Part shown: piece after piece, positions 15,241 through 61,460 of the stretch
How positions within the stretch are numbered: position 1 is the first letter of the stretch
Layout: the number at the start of each line of letters is the position of its first letter
Source: Sabellastarte sp. h YS-2021
Taxonomy: Eukaryota; Annelida; Polychaeta; Sabellida; Sabellidae
Length of the DNA: 64,000 bases
Reading direction: 5' to 3'
NCBI GenBank assembly: GCA_964017235.1
Contig: OZ024936.1
Location: 53,247,028 to 53,311,027 of the forward strand
Translations under genes and position numbers: made by a program
Notes under the pieces: model-generated
Database searches by the model: none
What the model was told of the DNA's origin: nothing
What the model saw: the letters and a program-made list of their open reading frames with translations, nothing else

Positions 15241-15265
15241 ATTTAATTAAATTCAACGTCAGCCA

Positions 15266-15601
15266 TTGCCCAGAAGATCAGCCACTGTTACCACGGAGTC
15301 CCAGAGGGTCGGCCTACTGCCAACAACCACTCCACAGGCGTCTAGTTCCACTCAAGCAGCAGCTAACAGCAGTTTTGTGTACTATACACCAAGCCCCATT
15401 GGCTTCAGCAACCCGACATCTGTCCTAACTGTACAGGATGAAGGGAGCAGACACAATCTGAGTGGAATCTTAAGCCAGCTACCAGATCTGACATCAACAC
15501 AGATGGTTGAGCAGCCTCAGCAGCAGCAGCAACCGCAGCAGCAGCTCTTTACTATCACCACTTCAGCACCGCCTCAACAGCAGCAGCAGCCTCCTCAGTA
15601 G
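15266..15601 (+). CDS. Q-rich ORF, putative second protein of the Harbinger-like locus
   Basis: Open frame of 111 codons (the frame opens at 15251 and there is no ATG at its start), ending in TAG at 15599-15601. The translation begins basic (PRRSATVTTESQRVG). The middle is S/T-rich, and the C-terminus is strongly glutamine/proline-rich, including runs such as QQQQQPQQQ and QQQQQPPQ. No domain is recognised. It faces the HARBI1-like transposase tail to tail, and its stop is followed 32 nt later by a histone-type stem-loop. PIF/Harbinger elements normally carry a second gene for a Myb/SANT-like protein. This could be the C-terminal exon of such a protein whose N-terminus was lost or lies in another exon; that is inference. 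The CAG-rich composition is unlike its surroundings. Confidence 0.5.
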   Translation: MPRRSATVTTESQRVGLLPTTTPQASSSTQAAANSSFVYYTPSPIGFSNPTSVLTVQDEGSRHNLSGILSQLPDLTSTQMVEQPQQQQQPQQQLFTITTSAPPQQQQQPPQ

Positions 15602-15633
15602 CCATCCAGTCAGGGTGGGTCTTTGACCTGCCA

Positions 15634-15649
15634 GGCCCTTTTCAGGGCC
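15634..15649 (+). terminator. Histone-type 3' stem-loop after the Q-rich ORF
   Basis: GGCCCTTTTCAGGGCC forms a perfect 6-bp stem with a TTTC loop, followed by ACCA. It fits every position of the animal replication-dependent histone mRNA 3' stem-loop consensus (GGYYYTTYTNARRRCC), which SLBP binds. It lies 32 nt after the stop codon, the usual histone spacing. No histone coding sequence is present nearby. Confidence 0.75.
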
Positions 15650-15659
15650 ACCAATTCTT

Positions 15660-16300
15660 CCAAAAACAATTATTCAGCTACATGTTATTCCAATTCCCCT
15701 CCCAAAACAAAAAAGTTCAGTACAAATACTTATCACAAGAAAAAAAATTAAAGTCCAACACCTACACCACCCCAAACATGAAACAAATAACCCATGGTAC
15801 CAAACATAACAAAAAAGGCCACATAAAAAAATTTAAAAATAACTCCCAATATGGCCATTAATCAGCCCATTTTTAGATTAAAATCCATGGGATAGTTTGA
15901 AATCTGTAATTGAAAAGTCCAACACTTACACCTTCCCTAGAGTTATAAGGCATTGTCACATACTTAGCAACCCACAAACATAACCCCCAAATGACAAACC
16001 CAGTACCAAACCTAACACCCAACTACCAAAAATAAACCCAACCCCAGTAACCACCAACCAAGAAACGCACAAACCCCAAAGTAAATAGAACCCATGCCAA
16101 CGAACTGACAAACTGTTTTGCAAACACAATCCCCCATTATTGAAAAAAACTAGTTCCATGGTTCCACATTTTTGTGAATAGAAGTGAAAATTTAAAATTC
16201 AAGATTTCCATAAAAACATTTCTGCTACAAATAAATTTCCAACCCATGAACAAAAAAAATTGGTGAAATTAGGATGTGGATTTCAAAATATATAAAAAAA
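15660..16300. other. AC-rich, G-poor spacer
   Basis: The plus strand is strongly depleted in G, with phrases like AACCCACAAACATAACCCCC and ACCAAACCTAACACCC. It follows the stem-loop and switches abruptly to a GT-rich plus strand at about 16310. No gene is supported; the minus-strand frame at 15956-16159 is a by-product of composition. Confidence 0.7.
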
Positions 16301-16388
16301 GTAATTCAGTTTAGGATATTATGTGTGACTTTGTGTTTGGCTTTGTTTAACACTGGGTTTGTATGTTTGTTGGGTGAGTAAGTTGTGT

Positions 16389-16695
16389 TTGTCTGTTTGT
16401 CCGTCTGAACAAGTTATGTTTGGCATGGGGTTTGTCTGCTTGTCCGTCTGAACAAGTTATGTTTGGCATGGGGTTTGTCTATGTGTACAAGTTATGTTTG
16501 GCATGGGGTTTGTCTGTTTGTCCGTGTGTACAAGTTATGTTTGGCATGGGGTTTGTCTGTTTGTCCATGTGTACAAGTTATGTTTGGCATGGGGTTTGTC
16601 TGCTTGTCCGTGTGTACAAGTTATGTTTGGCATGGGGTTTGTCTGTTTGTCCATGTGTACAAGTTATGTTTGGCATGGGGTTTGTCCGTCTGTAG
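16389..16695 (+). repeat. 43-bp tandem repeat, seven units
   Basis: AAGTTATGTTTGGCATGGGG recurs at 16411, 16454, 16489, 16532, 16575, 16618 and 16661. The period is 43 bp apart from one 35-bp unit. Units vary only slightly in the CCGTGTGT/CCATGTGT part. The overlapping open frames at 16420-16712 are artefacts of the repeat. Confidence 0.95.
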
Positions 16696-16732
16696 CAAGC
16701 ATAGCTGATTAATTGTTTTTGGAATATTTGGT

Positions 16733-16748
16733 AGTCCTGAAAAGGACT
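16733..16748 (-). terminator. Histone-like stem-loop downstream of the transposase, copy 2
   Basis: On minus it reads AGTCCTTTTCAGGACT followed by ACCAAA, a 6-bp stem with a TTTC loop. It departs from the histone consensus only at the outermost pair (A-T instead of G-C). The second G-C pair, the three Y-R pairs, the closing T-A and the loop all fit. Confidence 0.7.
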
Positions 16749-16757
16749 GTTATAGTT

Positions 16758-16773
16758 AGTCCTGAAAAGGACT
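16758..16773 (-). terminator. Histone-like stem-loop downstream of the transposase, copy 1
   Basis: An identical AGTCCTTTTCAGGACT hairpin on minus, starting 17 nt after the TAA of the HARBI1-like ORF. The two copies belong to a 25-bp tandem duplication (TAGTCCTGAAAAGGACTGTT on plus, twice). Confidence 0.7.
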
Positions 16774-16790
16774 GTTTACTGCAACAGGAC

Positions 16791-17876
16791 TTATATTCTG
16801 CTATCTTGCCAGGCCACTGCTCCCTCATTATTGAAGTAGTCCTTCAGGTAATCCCTCTGTCTTTTGGCCTCTCTAGCAGGGTTTCTGTCTTGGCCACCAC
16901 CAGCAGCACCACCAATCAATCCACAATCACCAGGCACATCATCATCACCATCCTCCCCAGGCTGCTGACCAGCAGGTTGACCTTGATACTGGCTTCTGAG
17001 TATGTTGTGCAGAACCACACAGGTCATAACCACTTCTCTAACTGTTTCTGGGGGTAGTTCAATGGTGGTCCTCATCACTCTGAATCTTGAAACCAGGATG
17101 CCAAAAGCGTTCTCCACAACTCTCCTGCCCCTTGATATTCTATAGTTGGCAATCCTTTCCTCTCTTGTTAACAGCCTTCTGCCATAGGGTTTCATGAGCC
17201 AGGTCTTCAGGGCTAAGGCATCATCTGCCAGAATGAAGTAGGGGACATCTCTACCACCCTGGGTTATAGGAGCTGGGTCAGGAAAGCCTATCCTGCCATC
17301 TTCAATCCTCCTCTTCAGCTGAGAGGCATTAAATATCTGGGCATCTGAGCAAGATCCAGCTGTACCCACATCCACCCATCTGAACTTGTACTGCCCATCT
17401 ACCAGGGCCAACATCACAATGGAAAAGAACCCCTTGTAGTTGTGGTACAGGGCTCCAGTGTTCTTGCGTTTCTTCAGGGCGACATGCTTCCCATCCAGGG
17501 CTCCCAGGGCATGAGGAACATTCCACCTGATCCTGAATTCCCTCTCCAGTTCTTTCCACTCATCTGGAGTAGTAGGACATTTGAGGTACTCTCTGGTGAA
17601 CTCATCCTGGATGGCCCTGCAGACCTCTGGTAAAAACTTGGAAACGGTGGATCTTCCAACCCTGAACTGACATGATAATGATGTGTATGACTCTCCAGTG
17701 GCCAGATATCTGATGGTGAGGGCTAACTTCTCCCCAACACTGATTGGTGCTCTGTAGTTGGTGGCCTGCCTGACTAGACGCGGTTCCAGTCTGGTCTTTA
17801 TCATTTCAAAGAATTCTGGGGTCATCCTCATGTAGTTGGTGAATCCTGGAATGTCTGTGGCATACAGATCAGCCAT
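16791..17876 (-). CDS. HARBI1: HARBI1-like PIF/Harbinger transposase
   Basis: An uninterrupted 361-codon ORF from ATG (17876) to TAA (16791), close to the ~350 residues usual for HARBI1-type proteins. A helix-turn-helix-like region covers residues ~45-80 (VGEKLALTIRYLATGESY...GRSTVSKF). The DDE nuclease superfamily core (DDE_Tnp_4 type) shows D128 in GALDGKH, D218/D219 in FILADDA and E255 in VVENAFG, so all three catalytic acids are present. The C-terminus is Gly/Asp-rich, then basic (REAKRQRDYLKDYF). The likely true N-terminus extends upstream but is cut by a stop codon at 17909-17907 (see 17907-18092). Its 3' end carries two histone-like stem-loops. It could be a live or recently active transposase or a domesticated gene; the intact core favours recent activity. 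Confidence 0.9.
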   Translation of the reverse strand: MADLYATDIPGFTNYMRMTPEFFEMIKTRLEPRLVRQATNYRAPISVGEKLALTIRYLATGESYTSLSCQFRVGRSTVSKFLPEVCRAIQDEFTREYLKCPTTPDEWKELEREFRIRWNVPHALGALDGKHVALKKRKNTGALYHNYKGFFSIVMLALVDGQYKFRWVDVGTAGSCSDAQIFNASQLKRRIEDGRIGFPDPAPITQGGRDVPYFILADDALALKTWLMKPYGRRLLTREERIANYRISRGRRVVENAFGILVSRFRVMRTTIELPPETVREVVMTCVVLHNILRSQYQGQPAGQQPGEDGDDDVPGDCGLIGGAAGGGQDRNPAREAKRQRDYLKDYFNNEGAVAWQDSRI

Positions 17877-17906
17877 AATGTTATGGTAGGCCCCCCTCTC
17901 CTCTCT

Positions 17907-18092
17907 CTACAGTAGCCATGGCCTGACCCACATGTTGTGCCTTCTTCTAGGTCTCTGTATGGGTGCTGGTGGTGCTGGTGGTGGTTGCTGTGCTTGACAT
18001 AAAAAATGGAAATACATGATTATTTGTAACTGAATAAAAACCAAAAAAGCCCTAAGTTGTTGTTGAATCTGTCTTCCATTAAAAGGTGGCAT
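17907..18092 (-). pseudogene. N-terminal extension of the HARBI1-like transposase, ended by TAG
   Basis: In the same frame as the transposase, 18092-17910 encodes a basic/proline-rich stretch (PPPAPPAPIQRPRRRHN) and then MWVRPWLL. The TAG at 17909-17907 follows, and then REERGAYHNIMADLY leads into the ORF. The R-rich, W-x-R-P-W patch directly before the HTH is typical of Harbinger transposases, so the TAG probably truncates a longer protein. An intron acceptor may fall near the TCAAG at about 17990. Confidence 0.6.
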
Positions 18093-18132
18093 CCTGCTGT
18101 GTTCCTAGAAAAGCAATGGTGATTAGATCGCG

Positions 18133-18135
<3 letters not shown>

Positions 18136-18168
<33 letters not shown>
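18136..18168. repeat. (TA)n microsatellite
   Basis: About 16 uninterrupted TA dinucleotides, just 5' of the transposase gene. A second TA-rich stretch lies at 15113-15153 on the other side of the locus. Confidence 0.95.
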
Positions 18169-18169
<1 letters not shown>

Positions 18170-18179
18170 CAGAAAATCC

Positions 18180-18540
18180 AGCAACTTTGGAAAACAAGAA
18201 TCGGCGATCCTGGTCTGGGGAAGACTGAGGAGGCCTGAGGACGCCGGGAGTTAATCGTGGGTTAGTTGGCTCTTAGTCCCAGGAGGCCTGAGGCATCCTG
18301 GGACCCAGTCGGTATGTGTACAACAGGATCGTGGTTGAAACCAACCTGAAAACTGGCTCAGTCGGTTCTTAGTCCCAGACCAGTCGGGGACTGTCCGGGG
18401 CCACCTGAGGCATCCTGAGGCTTCCTGAGGACGATCTGTACTTAATCCCAGACTTCAATACTGACTCAGTATTCCCGCCCATTTTTGTTTTTTTTCCACC
18501 GATTGTCCACGATTAAGGGTCCCAGACAGGATCGGGCCTT
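18180..18540. repeat. GC-rich block with short internal repeats
   Basis: Repeated phrases include GGCCTGAGGACG/GAGGCATCCTG (about five), CTTAGTCCCAG (two) and TTAATCCCAGAC. The block is much more GC-rich than its surroundings. No ORF or known family is recognised. It may be a transposon end or a small satellite. Confidence 0.45.
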
Positions 18541-18570
18541 AATCTTTTGGTGGAACAGGGGGATAAAATA

Positions 18571-28371: not shown

Positions 28372-28422
28372 ACCCAATACCCCATCAGAAAAATCTATCA
28401 GACAGTCTTAGAGCTCAGTTAT

Positions 28423-28975
28423 TAACTCATATATTCCGGTTAACTAACTGGTATATTCAAGTTAGCCAACTCGTATATTCCAGTTAGCTAACTGGTACAT
28501 TCCAGTTTACTAACTGGTATATTCCAATTACTAACTGGTATATTCCAGTTATTAACTTGTATATTCCAGTTAGCTAACTTATATATTCAAGTTATTAACT
28601 CGTATATTCCAGTTACTAACTCATATATTCAAGTTAGCTAACTGAAATATTCAAGTTAGCTAACACATATTTTCCAGTTAGTTGACTGAAATATTTAATA
28701 GTCAGTTATATATTCCAGTAAGTAACTTGAATATACCAGTTAGTAACTGTAATATATGAGTAACTAACTCGAATATACCAGTAAGTAATTGGTATATTCA
28801 AGTTAGCTAACTGGTATATTCCAGTTACCTAAGTTGTATATTGAAGTTAGCTAACTGGTACATTCAAGTTAGTTAACTCATATGTTCAAATTAGTAACTG
28901 GTATATTCCAGTTATTAACTCATATATTCCAGTTACCAACTGGTATATTCAAGTTAACTACTGGTATATTCATGT
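28423..28975. repeat. ~20-bp minisatellite with a GTTAGCTAAC core
   Basis: About 27 diverged units of TATATTC(C/A)AGTTAGCTAACTGG, with units at ~20-bp spacing. The core GTTAGCTAAC is a perfect palindrome, so the array can form many cruciforms. Confidence 0.9.
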
Positions 28976-33399: not shown

Positions 33400-35460
33400 T
33401 TAACTATAGAAACAAGGACAAAATTAACCTCATCTGCTTTCACATACCAATTTAAAATGGTACTGTTATTTTCAGGTAATCCCACTGCAAGTTGACAGGA
33501 TTCTATTTTGCAGAGGACAATATATTTTTACACATTTTGGACTATACTGAAGCCAGTGGTTGACAGTATCACTTAATTACGCATAATACATTTATACTTG
33601 GACTAGCATCGTTGCTTAAGTATAGAACCAAGGATGTAAGTTAACACATCTGCTTTCATATACCAGTTTGGAAATTCTGGTACTCTTATTTTTAGAGAGT
33701 CCCACTGCATGTTATCATTACCTCAGTGACAGGAATCTTTTTAACTGATCTAATCTAACTGATCTAATAAGACGCAATAACTGATAACTGATCTAACTGA
33801 TGTAATATGACACAGTTTTGGACAATACTGAAACAATGGTTAAACTGTATCTCAAAGTTATACCTAATATATTAACAACGAAGAGTAGACAGCGCCACCT
33901 AGTTTCACATAAAATATGTATATTTGAAGTATCCATGTATTGCACCAAGGGGGGAAATTAATGTATCTGCTTTTACAGACAAATTTAGAAATTTGGTACT
34001 CTTATGTTTAGATAATCCCACTGCAAGTTATCATTACTTCAGTGACAGGATTTTATTTCTAAAAGTAAAGATCTAATTTAACACACTTTTGGACCATACT
34101 GAAACAGTGGTTAAAACAGTATCACACAGTTGTACCTAATATATCAACGAATAGTCAACAGTATCATATAGTTACACCAAATATATGTGAAACGAAGTAA
34201 CCAAGTATTGCACCAAGGAGTGGAGTTAACTTCTCTACTTTTTTCTCTTTTTTATCACGACTTCAGTGAAAAGATTCTATTTTTAAATTGAAAGATCTAA
34301 TTTAACACACTTTTTACTATATTGAAACAGTGGTTAAACTGTATCACACAGTTGTACCTAATATAAGAGTCAACAACGCTGTATAGTTACACCTATTATA
34401 TGTGTAATTGAAGTAACCAAGTATTAAATCAAGGAGGGGTGTTTACGTATGTGCTTTTACTCACCAATTGAGATAATACCACTGTAAGTTATCATTACTT
34501 CAGTGACATGATTCTGTTACTAAAGGGATAGCTCTATTTTGTCACAATTTTGGACTCAACTGAAACTGTGGTTAAACTATACCACAAAATTGTACCTAAT
34601 ATATTAACAACGAATAATCAATAATACCACATAGTTACACCTAATGTATGTGTAATTGAAGTAGCCAAGTATTTTACAAAAGAAGGAAGTTAAAATATCT
34701 GCTTTTACACACTGATTAAGAATTTTGGTACTCTTGTCTTTAGATAAACCCACTGCAAGTTATCATTACTTTAGTGACAGGATTCTATTTCCAGAATGGG
34801 AAATCTAATTTGACACAATTTTAGACTATACTAAAACAGCAATTAAAACTATACCACACAATTGTACCTAATATATTAACAACGAATAATCAATAATACC
34901 ACATAGTTACACCTAATGTATGTGTAATTGAAGTAGGGTTTACAAAAGAAGGAAGTTAAAATATCTGCTTTTACACACTGATTAAGAATTTTGGTACTCT
35001 TATCTTTAGATAAACCCACTGCAAGTCATCATTACTTTAGTGACAGGATTCTATTTCCAGAATGGGAAATCTAATTTGACACAATTTTAGACTATACTAA
35101 AACAGCGATTAAAACTATACTACACAATTGTACCTAATATATTAACAACGAATAATCAATAATACCACATAGTTACACCTAATGTATGTGTAATTGAAGT
35201 AACCAAGTATTTTACAAAAGAAGGAAGTTAAAATATCTGCTTTTACACACTGATTAAGAATTTTGGTACTCTTATCTTTAGATAAACCCACTGCAAGTTA
35301 TCATTACTTCAGTGACAGGATTCTATTTCTAAAATGAGAGGTCTAATTTGACACAATTTTGGAATATACTAAAACAGTGGTTAAACAGTATTACAAAGTT
35401 GCACTGATATATCAACAACGGGGAGTGAATAGTGCCACATAGTTACACCAAATATATGAG
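33400..35460 (+). repeat. ~270-bp tandem repeat array, about eight units
   Basis: Each unit contains CCCACTGCAAGTTATCATTACTT-type sequence followed by GTGACAGGATTCTATTT and TTAGACTATACT-like sequence. Anchor positions are about 33482, 33703, 34019, 34478, 34749, 35016 and 35287, plus a weak one at about 34240. The last three are 267-271 bp apart and nearly identical; earlier ones are shorter and more diverged. Confidence 0.85.
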
Positions 35461-36154
35461 TAGTTGAAATAACAATAATTGTTAATTATGAAAAGAATCG
35501 AAAAGTAATGGTTTTTATCTAGTCCCTGTAACAGTTATCAGATCACAGTGTCTCAGATAAGTCAAAATATAGACAAATTACCTGATATACAGGGACATAA
35601 TGTTCAGTATACCAACTTGTATAATATGTTGCCACATTTTCAGATTGCTCACATCATATACATTCTAGATTGTTATTATGCGAACAAGGTCTTTTATTAA
35701 TAAGTGATGTGCATTTTTACAACGGGGCTGTCTGTCACTGTGATGTTATTTCTGGTGGTCCTCTAGAGATTATATATTCCTAATATATGGTTATTGGGCT
35801 TTCACGTTCTCAAATTCAGGTATTATCAGAGTGTGACAAAGCCAATGCTAGCTTAGTTGCAAAGATTTTTTATGAAGATTGTCAGTATTTTGAAAAATAT
35901 CGTGTGTCTTATGAGTAATACATGAATAGGTTAAACTTAAGTTTGATTGATTGATTGAGAGATAAGATAGTTTACTCTCCTAAGACAGGGTTAAAACCAT
36001 GTAGCTGGCAAATAAACCATATAGTAATAATACATATGGTAATGTTACTAACAATACTAACGCAGTTGTTTCACAATTTGAGGATAATCCTAATCCTCAC
36101 TATTTTCACACTCAAATTGGTCACAAACTTGACAGACGTGTATCTGACTTTATT
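35461..36154 (+). other. AT-rich segment 5' of the Ngaro-like RT
   Basis: Degenerate. Around 35770-35930 there may be further element sequence, but no frame is convincing. Confidence 0.4.
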
Positions 36155-42500: not shown

Positions 42501-45500
42501 CCAAAGCACACACATATCACACGCGGGATCAGAAATATAGTCTACTTTATTGAATGTGTGAAATGTGGAATTATGTTTTATTTGGGGTTAGCCCGCCATT
42601 AATCCTATTGGCATCAATCAATTTGTGTAATAAATTTCCTTTCGTTGTTATAGTTAGTACCCCTATACCCCTCTACAGCTATATTATCAGTCAAGTTCTT
42701 GCTTTGCTCTGCAAAGGTCTCAATGGAACAAGATAAGACCAAGTTTCAAAATGTGAAGTCATGGTTCAGACCCTAATACAAATCTGCTTAAGTAAACAAA
42801 GTAACAAGTATTGAAATTCATTATATATATTGACAACAAAAATAGAAACAAGGTAAAAATATGTGTATAAACAGAATATTGAAAAGACAAAGACTAGAGA
42901 TAACAGGTTATTTAACTTTGAGAGAAGAAAAGATGTTCTAAATTTTATGAAGGTAACACTCAAATGTATACGAGTATGGAGTAAAAGATTATTTGAGAAA
43001 TTAAGATATTTAGAGACTGACAAAGGCTAGATTTAATGAAGAACCAGAAACCAAATAATTAAAATTTACAAGAGACTTAAGAAAGGCTACTCAACCAGAC
43101 ACCAAAATTAAGGCTCAAATTAAAAGGTATTTACATTAACTATTTGAGAAATACTTCGAGTAAAACGGGGAATAATCAGTTTTTAATGATAACAAATTTT
43201 GACAGATGGGACTCCAGTACCTGCAAAAAACAAACTTGACACATGGACACACATGACATTTAAACATGGATCAAATAGTGCACACACAAACAGCAAGCTT
43301 AGGCAACATGATAGAAAACAGCACATGATATAACACCAGGCATACAAGTCAAAGCATAATAAAATTATCGATTGTGCAATATATAATATAAAAATAATTA
43401 CACAGAGCCAAAGTAAAACAGACAAGGCTAATAATTTTGAAAAGGTGTAAGAAATGACAGGTGAATATTATGAAAAAGGCTTAAATAAAAGTGAGCAAAG
43501 AGGAAATTTTGGAGTACCAACTGGATCTATTTTTAAGTTATGGAATACTTTTCCAGAAAAGGTTGAATATAATTTTGATATAAGGTACAAGTATTAACAC
43601 AGTGGACAACAATTCAGGTTATGGACCAGAGGAGCCAGGCTAGGAATATTGAATAAGACAAATTAATAACATTAATATAATTAACCATAAAACACAAAAG
43701 ATAAATGTACTGTAAATACTGAAGGAGCCACCGGAAGGCTAATGTTACACAAGCCGCAGAGGAAGGGGAAAACATTTATTTGACAGCCAGTAGTCAAGCA
43801 GTTGAAAGAAAGAGGGGAAGTTTCATAGAAGAAATAATGAAACATACACACATCAGAAATGCAATTCACCAATCATGAAATAGCATCAGATATGCCCGTA
43901 CCCCACTGCCTGGGGAAATAGTTTTCAACACCATGAGATATAGAAGTAGAGAAAAAATACAAAGATCACAATACTTTCAGAGCAGTGTCAGTTATATAAA
44001 GGTCCAAATGATTTTTAAGTAGAGAAAATAACATCTAAAGAGAAAGAAAATGTATGTAAAGATAAAGCATTAAAACAAGACAATTCAATAGCAAGATCAC
44101 AGCATTAATCAGTAAAATAATAAAGATGATGCACACCTACAACCCCTAAGCAATATCCCTACGAACTATCAACTCCCTACACTTTATGGTTTCAGAGATA
44201 TTACCCGGACAAAATTTTAAAGGTCAAGGTTACAACGGGAATATCAAATGTCAAATCAAGGTCACACCATGAGATTGCACAGCTACAACCCCCTACCAAC
44301 CTACCATGTATCAACTTCCTACACCTTACGGTTTCCGAGATATAACCCGGATAAGATTTTGTAGGTCAAGGTCACTACGGCAAGGTCAAAGGTTAAATCA
44401 AGGTCACACCATGACGTTGCACACCTACATCCCCCAACCAATGTCCCCACCAAGTATCTACTTCCTACACCTTACAGTTTTTGAGATATAGCCTGGACAA
44501 GATTTTATAGGTCAAGGTCACTATGGCAAGGTCAAAGGTTAAATCAAGGTCACACCATGACGTTGCACACCTACACCCCCTAATAAATATCCCTACCAAG
44601 TATCAACTTCCTACACCATACAGTTTCTGAGATATAGCCCGGACAATATTCAAACTCAAGGTCAATACGGCAAGGTCAAAGCTCAAATCAAGGTCAGACC
44701 ATGAAGTTGCACACCTACACCTCCTAACTAATGCCCGTAACAAAAATCAACTTCCTACACCTTATGGTTTCTGTTTCTGAGATACAACCTGGACAAACTT
44801 TTTCACGCTGCCCTCTTGGATGCCCGGCCAACCCGCCCATCCATCCAGACAACATGGGGGAAAACAATACCCTGACAGCCCTTAAGGGCTGGGGGTAATA
44901 AAATAATTTAAAAGGATGCATTAATTATTAAAAAAAAAACACAAAAAGCTTAGCTATTTAAGTTTTACCAAAATCCAGATTTTAATGGCTGAAAAACACT
45001 TGACACACAATTTTAGCACCAGAATAAATAAAATTAATCTCTTCAGAATTTTTCAGAAGTTGAGAAATTGTCTTTACAAGTATTTAGAAATTTTCAGTTA
45101 AGGATAGATTTGAGCTTTTGTCAGAAAAACAGTAATCCATTTCTTGGTAAAGTTACAATTAAATGAAATGAATACTTTTAGAAATTAAGATATTAATTTA
45201 CCAGTTATTCCTTAATTATAAACAAAACAGAAAGGTTAAATTACTCTTTTCAACATGAAAAATTACTTTATTTTTAAAATAATACAATTACAGGCACATA
45301 TCAGCCATTAGAGAAAATACACACAAACATAAATACAGGTTTGCCCCCAAATTTACCAATTTTAACCCCAAAATAAAACCTGACCCAATTATCAAAGAAT
45401 TTCCAATACCATCCCAATAAGGGCCCTGCTCTCTGTTCTGGACCATGGGACTGCACACTTGGGAGGGGGTCTCCCAGAAAGTGACTGGAAACCATACCCT

Positions 45501-60484: not shown

Positions 60485-61460
60485 CTAAAAGGGATTTCCT
60501 CTTCTGTGGTGAACAATTTTGAAATTCACTGAGGATGTCTTTTTAAGAATCTCATAAGGTTCATGCCAGAAATGTAGCAACTTTTTGGTCAACCCCTTCT
60601 TTGGTTTTGGTGTGAATACCCATACTTTGTTGCCAAATTGGAATGTAAGAGCTGCAGTATCTTTGTCATATCTCTCCTTGGAATTCACTTGGCTTTGTTG
60701 TAATGTCTCTTTGCTTCACTCCTAGCTTGAGTAAGTTTCTCCTCTAATTTACCCATGAACTCATGTAGTTCAATTGTTTCTTTTGGCCTTGACAATATGC
60801 TATGGTCCACTGGTAGCTTGGCTTCATATCCATGCATCAAGAAAAATGGTGTGAACCCAGTCCCTGCAGATGCTGAAGTGTTGTAAGCCAATAACACTGC
60901 TTCAAGATACCTGTCCCAGTCTGTGTGTTTTGAATTGGTGTACATGCGCATCATCTCAACTAAAGTTTTGTTCATTCTCTCTGTCAGGGAATTGTACTGG
61001 GGGTGGAAACTTGTAATGTTTATTTTATTAATACTTAGGCATTTGCAGGTCTCTTCTATTATTTTGGACAGGAAGTTGCTCCTATCACTGAGTAATTGCC
61101 TCATTGCCCTAAACCTAAAAATAACATTGTCAACTAGAACATTGGCTACTGTTACACTATCAGTGGCTTTAAGTGGGAATGTCATTGCATATCTGGTCAA
61201 ATAGTCAGTAAATACAATAGTGTACTTACTGCCTCAGTTGCTTTTGACAAATGGGCCGCAGATATCAACTCCGACCCTTTCAAAAACTTCTGATACAACT
61301 GGCATGTTGACCAATGGGGCATTTTTCTGTTGGTGTCTTTTTGGTCACACAGTCTGCACATGTGTCAATCCATTCCTTAGTGTATGCATACATTCCTGGC
61401 CAAAAGTATCGGGTTGCTAATTTTGGGTAAACCTTGTTGATACTCAAGTGCCCACCTATT
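60485..61460 (-). pseudogene. Gypsy integrase
   Basis: From 61420 downwards the frame gives YFWPGMYAYTKEWIDTCADC, the C-x2-C end of the HHCC zinc finger. Then ERVGVDICGPFV (first catalytic Asp), the ORF at 61200-60685 with LLSDRSNFLSK (second Asp) and SFHPQYNSLTERMNKTL (Glu). The 60688-60485 part (FQFGNKVWVFTPKPKKGLTK) is the C-terminal GPY/F-like module. Small frame breaks occur near 61210 and 60690. Confidence 0.85.

Follow-up and report, generated by a model that had tools for sequence, protein, structure and literature searches.

Histone-type 3' ends on both genes of a PIF/Harbinger transposon in a sabellid annelid genome

The mRNAs of replication-dependent histone genes are finished by a pathway of their own, in which SLBP occupies a hairpin, the U7 snRNP pairs with a downstream element, and the transcript is cut after an ACCA motif to yield a tail-less mRNA that is abundant in S phase. 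PIF/Harbinger transposons are recognized, among other traits, by the 3-bp TWA target duplication that is the rule of the superfamily. As described in parts of PMC5371812, cut-and-paste elements can increase in number when replication forks pass.

Here, we report that the known cis parts of histone 3'-end processing are present at both genes of a PIF/Harbinger element. The copy that drew our attention lies in a 64,000-nucleotide stretch of Sabellastarte sp. h YS-2021 DNA, the whole of which was analyzed and is called the window below.

The element copy and its two gene ends

The window element is a left-truncated copy of a PIF/Harbinger element of ~5 kb with two convergent genes. It occupies positions 15256 to 18563, its left part missing, and its alignment to other copies spans 15256 to ~18564. 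The complete copies L043 and L044 are ~5 kb long and have short inverted ends, and both show a 3-bp target duplication by eye (TTA in L044, TAA in L043). Comparison by eye with these two copies places the right terminal inverted repeat of the window element at 18548-18563, followed by TAA (18564-18566) as the likely target duplication. In L044, the two convergent genes are uninterrupted open reading frames that encode a 405-aa MADF protein (PF10545, E 2e-11) and a 439-aa DDE transposase (PF13359, E 2.4e-32). Near the left end of L044 (positions 1829-1886), and at the same place in L043, we noted a 58-bp imperfect palindrome.

The MADF (Myb/SANT-like) gene is represented in the window by its Q-rich, C-terminal part (15256-15601, plus strand), which ends with a TAG codon (15599-15601); the PF10545 protein of L044 closes with this same sequence. 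The initial annotation rightly placed a Q-rich reading frame ahead of the plus-strand hairpin, but what it treated as a gene in its own right is the C-terminal part of a MADF protein, cut at ~15256. The transposase reading frame (16791-17906, minus strand; PF13359, E 1.2e-28) carries a premature stop near its N-terminus when compared with longer copies. Since the MADF gene is cut and the transposase prematurely stopped, we consider the copy to be damaged; its 3' signals are the same as in longer copies. A splice-acceptor-like CTAG upstream of the transposase start makes an intron in the 5' untranslated region of this gene possible. The spacer that separates the two genes contains a 43-bp tandem repeat (16387-16693), and other tandem arrays occur elsewhere in the window, at 28416-28971 (21/22 bp), 34471-35473 (266 bp), and 44130-44773 (146 bp). 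A weak match to an integrase core (60685-61233, minus strand; PF00665, E 0.0004, below its cut-off) is a possible retroelement remnant.

At each gene end, the order is stop codon, stem-loop, ACCA, and downstream element, as in the replication-dependent histone genes of the host, and all three hairpins lie on the sense strand of the reading frame before them. The stem-loop of the MADF gene, GGCCCTTTTCAGGGCC (15634-15649, plus strand), begins 32 nt after the stop and scores 36.5 bits with the Rfam model RF00032 (Histone3), above the 34-bit cut-off of that family (E 5.4e-7 for the whole window). It is followed by ACCA (15650-15653), which by its letters and its position, both as in histone 3' ends, is the expected cleavage site, and by a downstream element (15660-15679) recognized by its likeness to that of host H4. 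The transposase gene bears the hairpin AGTCCTTTTCAGGACT twice on the minus strand, at 16758-16773 and 16733-16748, that is, 17 and 42 nt after the stop. The first pair of these hairpins is A-U and not G-C. The second copy, scored at 31.5 bits against the cut-off of 34 and with a fold z of -3.7, adjoins a downstream element (16703-16722) whose best match is the host H1 downstream element. The A-U pair and the score under the cut-off both count against the histone-type reading. Both the plus- and the minus-strand hairpins fold into a 6-bp stem with a 4-nt loop. The hairpin, flanking ACCA, and stop distances given in the initial annotation were thus all recovered. Positions 15637-15680 and 16702-16745 are inverted copies of each other over 44 nt (89% complementary), a likeness that runs on for ~30 nt past the hairpin because both gene ends carry the same downstream element.

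The comparison with the host relies on its H4, H3, H2A, and H2B genes on contig C2 and on an H1-like gene that sits in a repeat unit of 1932 bp on contig C4. All five histone types carry the hairpin GGCTCTTTTCAGAGCC, followed by the downstream element CAAAAACAATTA in H1, H3, and H4 and by CAAGAACTTTTA in H2A and H2B. Transposon downstream elements resemble those of the host in 12 of 13 ends, exceeding all 300 shuffles and all 300 random stretches; the MADF end of locus L056 fails this shuffle and random test against host histone elements. The MADF end of the window shares 19 identical nucleotides with the host H4 element, and in L056, L081, and L083 the transposase end comes closest to the H2A/H2B type. 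A downstream element, for which the initial annotation had recommended a search, is therefore present at both gene ends. Its likeness to those of the host may have arisen because histone gene ends were captured more than once, or because both have to fit U7. Rfam yielded no match to U7 snRNA in this genome, nor in 14 control genomes. In the host genome, C4:31445721-31509245, the start of which is covered by L052, holds 32 listed stem-loop sites in tandem array, mostly 1932 bp apart, with an H1-like reading frame in both of the units inspected.

Occurrence in the element family and in divergent relatives

The exact plus-strand hairpin occurs 2277 times (1164 + 1113) in the 1.79-Gb genome to which the window belongs, and its reversed control occurs 0 times in the same genome, which bears out the early impression that the three hairpins are hard to explain by chance. 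MADF-homologous sequence adjoins the exact hairpin in 8 of 8 loci taken from this genome list, and the transposase-side hairpin is present in 6 of the 7 usable ones (L001-L005, L007, and L008).

Thirty loci were chosen by their transposase protein alone, from 113 scored of 21199 candidates. One of them is the window's own and the rest show 97-98% protein identity, and the 30 copies count nearly as one lineage. In all 30, a hairpin of six pairs lies no more than 120 nt from the transposase stop, the number of hairpins being one, two, three, or four in 2, 12, 15, and 1 loci, respectively. At the MADF end, a hairpin is present in 28 of the 30, with six pairs in 26 and five pairs in 2, and was not found in the other 2. 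Other copies of the element, as the initial annotation had anticipated, do carry hairpins at the ends of both reading frames (30/30 and 28/30, the window's own copy included). The two proteins of the element form clusters of 1082 and 1178 members (P0001 and P0121); these figures are pooled and not per-genome counts, and they are in keeping with a recent and large amplification. Seven related proteins from elsewhere, chosen for alignment, are 49-69% identical, a comparison of proteins only, the hairpin being known from one genome. In viral contigs, four matches to the hairpin pattern, one of them at the very end of its stretch, had no related reading frame upstream by eye, and a profile-guided scan of the same contigs found no transposase relative.

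More divergent loci came from a search of the genome with RF00032, in which 75 matches were scored of 382297 candidates; control genomes matched once, under the cut-off. From these matches, we examined 31 single sites (L048-L063 and L065-L079), a histone cluster (L064), and six adjoining stretches (L080-L085). One single site, L052, is an H1 repeat. Among the remaining 30, MADF homology to L044 was detected in 23 by tblastn, weak MADF homology to divergent relatives in L048 and L065, and a related transposase without MADF homology to L044 in L075, L076, and L079; neither MADF nor transposase homology was found in L073 and L078, the region examined being only ~400 nt upstream of the hairpin in L073, L075, and L076. 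In L057 (1870-1960), two tandem hairpins follow the MADF stop, one of the AGTCC type and then one of the GGCCC type, both with a changed loop.

Since it was the MADF-side hairpin that led to the divergent loci, the hairpin on the transposase side is the fairer test. The transposase C-terminus is present in 22 hairpin-found loci and is followed by a perfect hairpin in 17 and by a degenerate hairpin in L061 and L083, whereas 3 have no hairpin there. The transposase of L081 and L082 is not convergently paired with the hairpin by which these loci were reached. Transposase identity among the perfect-hairpin loci ranges from 31% (L081, with a damaged frame) to 100%. The three loci devoid of a transposase-end hairpin, L048, L075, and L076, have AATAAA-type hexamers instead and a transposase that is ~46-55% identical; since the opposite strand does bear a hairpin of histone type, this related lineage constitutes a natural contrast.

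As controls, we took 12 other DDE_Tnp_4 copies, from seemingly distinct families as judged by score and frame length, out of 150 PF13359 matches scored of 10138 candidates. None of the 12 has a histone hairpin (Rfam, E up to 1), and 9 have AATAAA or ATTAAA within 150 nt of the stop, so that the histone-type ends look like the property of one clade and not of all the DDE_Tnp_4 elements of the genome.

Predicted 3'-end processing and competing explanations

Our current working hypothesis is that host SLBP would bind the stem-loop of each gene, that the U7 snRNP would pair with the downstream element, and that the pre-mRNA would be cut after ACCA, giving mRNAs that lack a poly(A) tail and build up chiefly during S phase. 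Among the tandem hairpins of the transposase gene, only the one adjoining the downstream element would direct cleavage. Judging from sequence, we find it probable that both element mRNAs are finished in this histone-like manner by SLBP and U7, tail-less and mainly in S phase. Tail-less, SLBP-dependent mRNAs linked to S phase had been suggested in the initial annotation, and the sequence findings support that suggestion. We hold with a little more reserve, yet still favor, the broader proposal that a transposon clade expresses both of its genes as SLBP/U7-processed, non-polyadenylated mRNAs and makes its transposase and partner protein in S phase. With both proteins made during DNA copying, jumps from replicated to unreplicated sites would be favored and the copy number would go up.

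The ends may instead work in two modes, with the histone signal serving in cycling cells and downstream poly(A) sites in others, at least for the MADF gene, a scheme that we view as unlikely but deserving of attention. Indeed, on the MADF strand, 26 of 26 young copies have at least one AATAAA or ATTAAA past the hairpin, as two modes would have it; the 1-kb spacer is A/T-rich, however, and ~2 hexamers per strand are expected from the composition of the window. Its transposase strand is free of both hexamers in 23 of the 26 young copies, which argues against a second mode for that gene, whereas among the 17 loci that have a perfect hairpin but do not belong to the young set, 12 show a hexamer no more than 400 nt from the stop of the transposase. 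Altogether, the evidence that poly(A) hexamers bring to bear on tail-less ends is weak and mixed.

It is improbable, in our opinion, that the ends are relics captured from host histone genes, with hairpins lying idle on polyadenylated mRNAs. Capture would account for the similarity of the downstream elements to those of individual histone genes (H4, H1, and H2A/H2B types), and the lineage without a transposase hairpin would also suit this view, but lineages with 27-70% identity in the transposase or the MADF protein have retained both ends, and the changes in the aligned stems are paired. The alignment used (A2) combines 5 histone and 14 transposon ends into 19 rows, 18 of them distinct and most of them picked by hairpin score. 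Pairing holds in all 108 of its cells, three pairs have changes in both partners, and the transposon stems differ from the histone stem by paired changes only. The covariation score was reached by 0 of 500 shuffles; the number of double-change pairs was reached by 300 of 500, which weighs against the histone-like reading. Given that the rows were mostly picked by hairpin score and that three stem types (histone, MADF, and transposase) account for their changes, few independent events lie behind the covariation count. Position 7 of the hairpin (G7), which SLBP requires according to parts of PMC10388802, is invariant in A2, and position 6 varies; in the decayed copies L031 and L083, G7 is lost, and one-sided stem changes do occur in single decayed copies. 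Full SLBP affinity needs two 5' flanking adenines (parts of PMC10388802), and the corresponding flank is CA at the MADF end and AC at the transposase end, which counts against the histone-like reading; host H2B has CC. At odds with idle hairpins, by contrast, divergence within the young family is lower in the stem-loop (0.9%) than in the spacer (3.2%), with 1.6% in the 31 nt downstream and 0.6% in the coding tail, as counted in 27 of the 30 loci, the other 3 having been skipped because their end motifs were not found. This difference lends weak support to conservation of the hairpin, divergence being low everywhere.

A role at the DNA level, whereby the hairpins would be binding sites for the transposase or the MADF protein or else the end repeats of an element nested across the spacer, strikes us as very improbable. 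The 44-nt inverted repeat formed by the two ends would suit such a role, but the hairpins keep distances that count from the stop codons (17 and 32 nt) and their downstream elements match host histone genes; the nested-element version is rejected because the true element ends, with their 3-bp duplications, are elsewhere. Lastly, chance or the insertion of a fragment of a histone gene at this single place has next to no credibility, for although the loose pattern with one mismatch to the 16-mer is common in shuffles (1.47 expected per shuffled window), the genome count and the presence of hairpins genome-wide at both gene ends rule out the former, and the lack of histone coding sequence in the window, already stated in the initial annotation and upheld by tblastn with five histone proteins (best E 0.17), rules out the latter.

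Relation to known systems

Should the histone-type processing of the element mRNAs prove true, it would define a class of animal mRNA that shares the histone type of ending without coding for histones and is encoded by very many copies in one genome. It would also establish a link between transposition and DNA replication at the level of mRNA and offer a simple route to expression in S phase, when, according to parts of PMC5371812, cut-and-paste jumps can raise copy number. Among the literature matches listed, consisting of titles and the starts of abstracts with preprints and most subscription journals outside their range, none reports histone-type ends on transposon genes. A word search found the term "stem-loop" absent from the main text of a PIF/Harbinger paper (PMC9710019).

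The element has in common with PIF/Harbinger transposons that encode a MADF or Myb/SANT partner a DDE_Tnp_4 transposase, a MADF partner, short inverted ends, and 3-bp TAA/TTA duplications, and differs from them in the histone-type 3' ends of both genes. With replication-dependent histone genes (RF00032), it shares the 6-bp stem, the 4-nt loop, the ACC flank, the downstream element, and the short distance from the stop. Unlike them, it encodes a MADF protein and a transposase instead of histones, and its transposase hairpins, present in one to four copies, have A-U as their first pair. Finally, as in replication-coupled cut-and-paste elements such as IS10, discussed in parts of PMC5371812, the jumping of the element would concentrate around DNA replication; the link to replication is the DNA methylation state in IS10, whereas in the element described here it would be the processing of mRNA.
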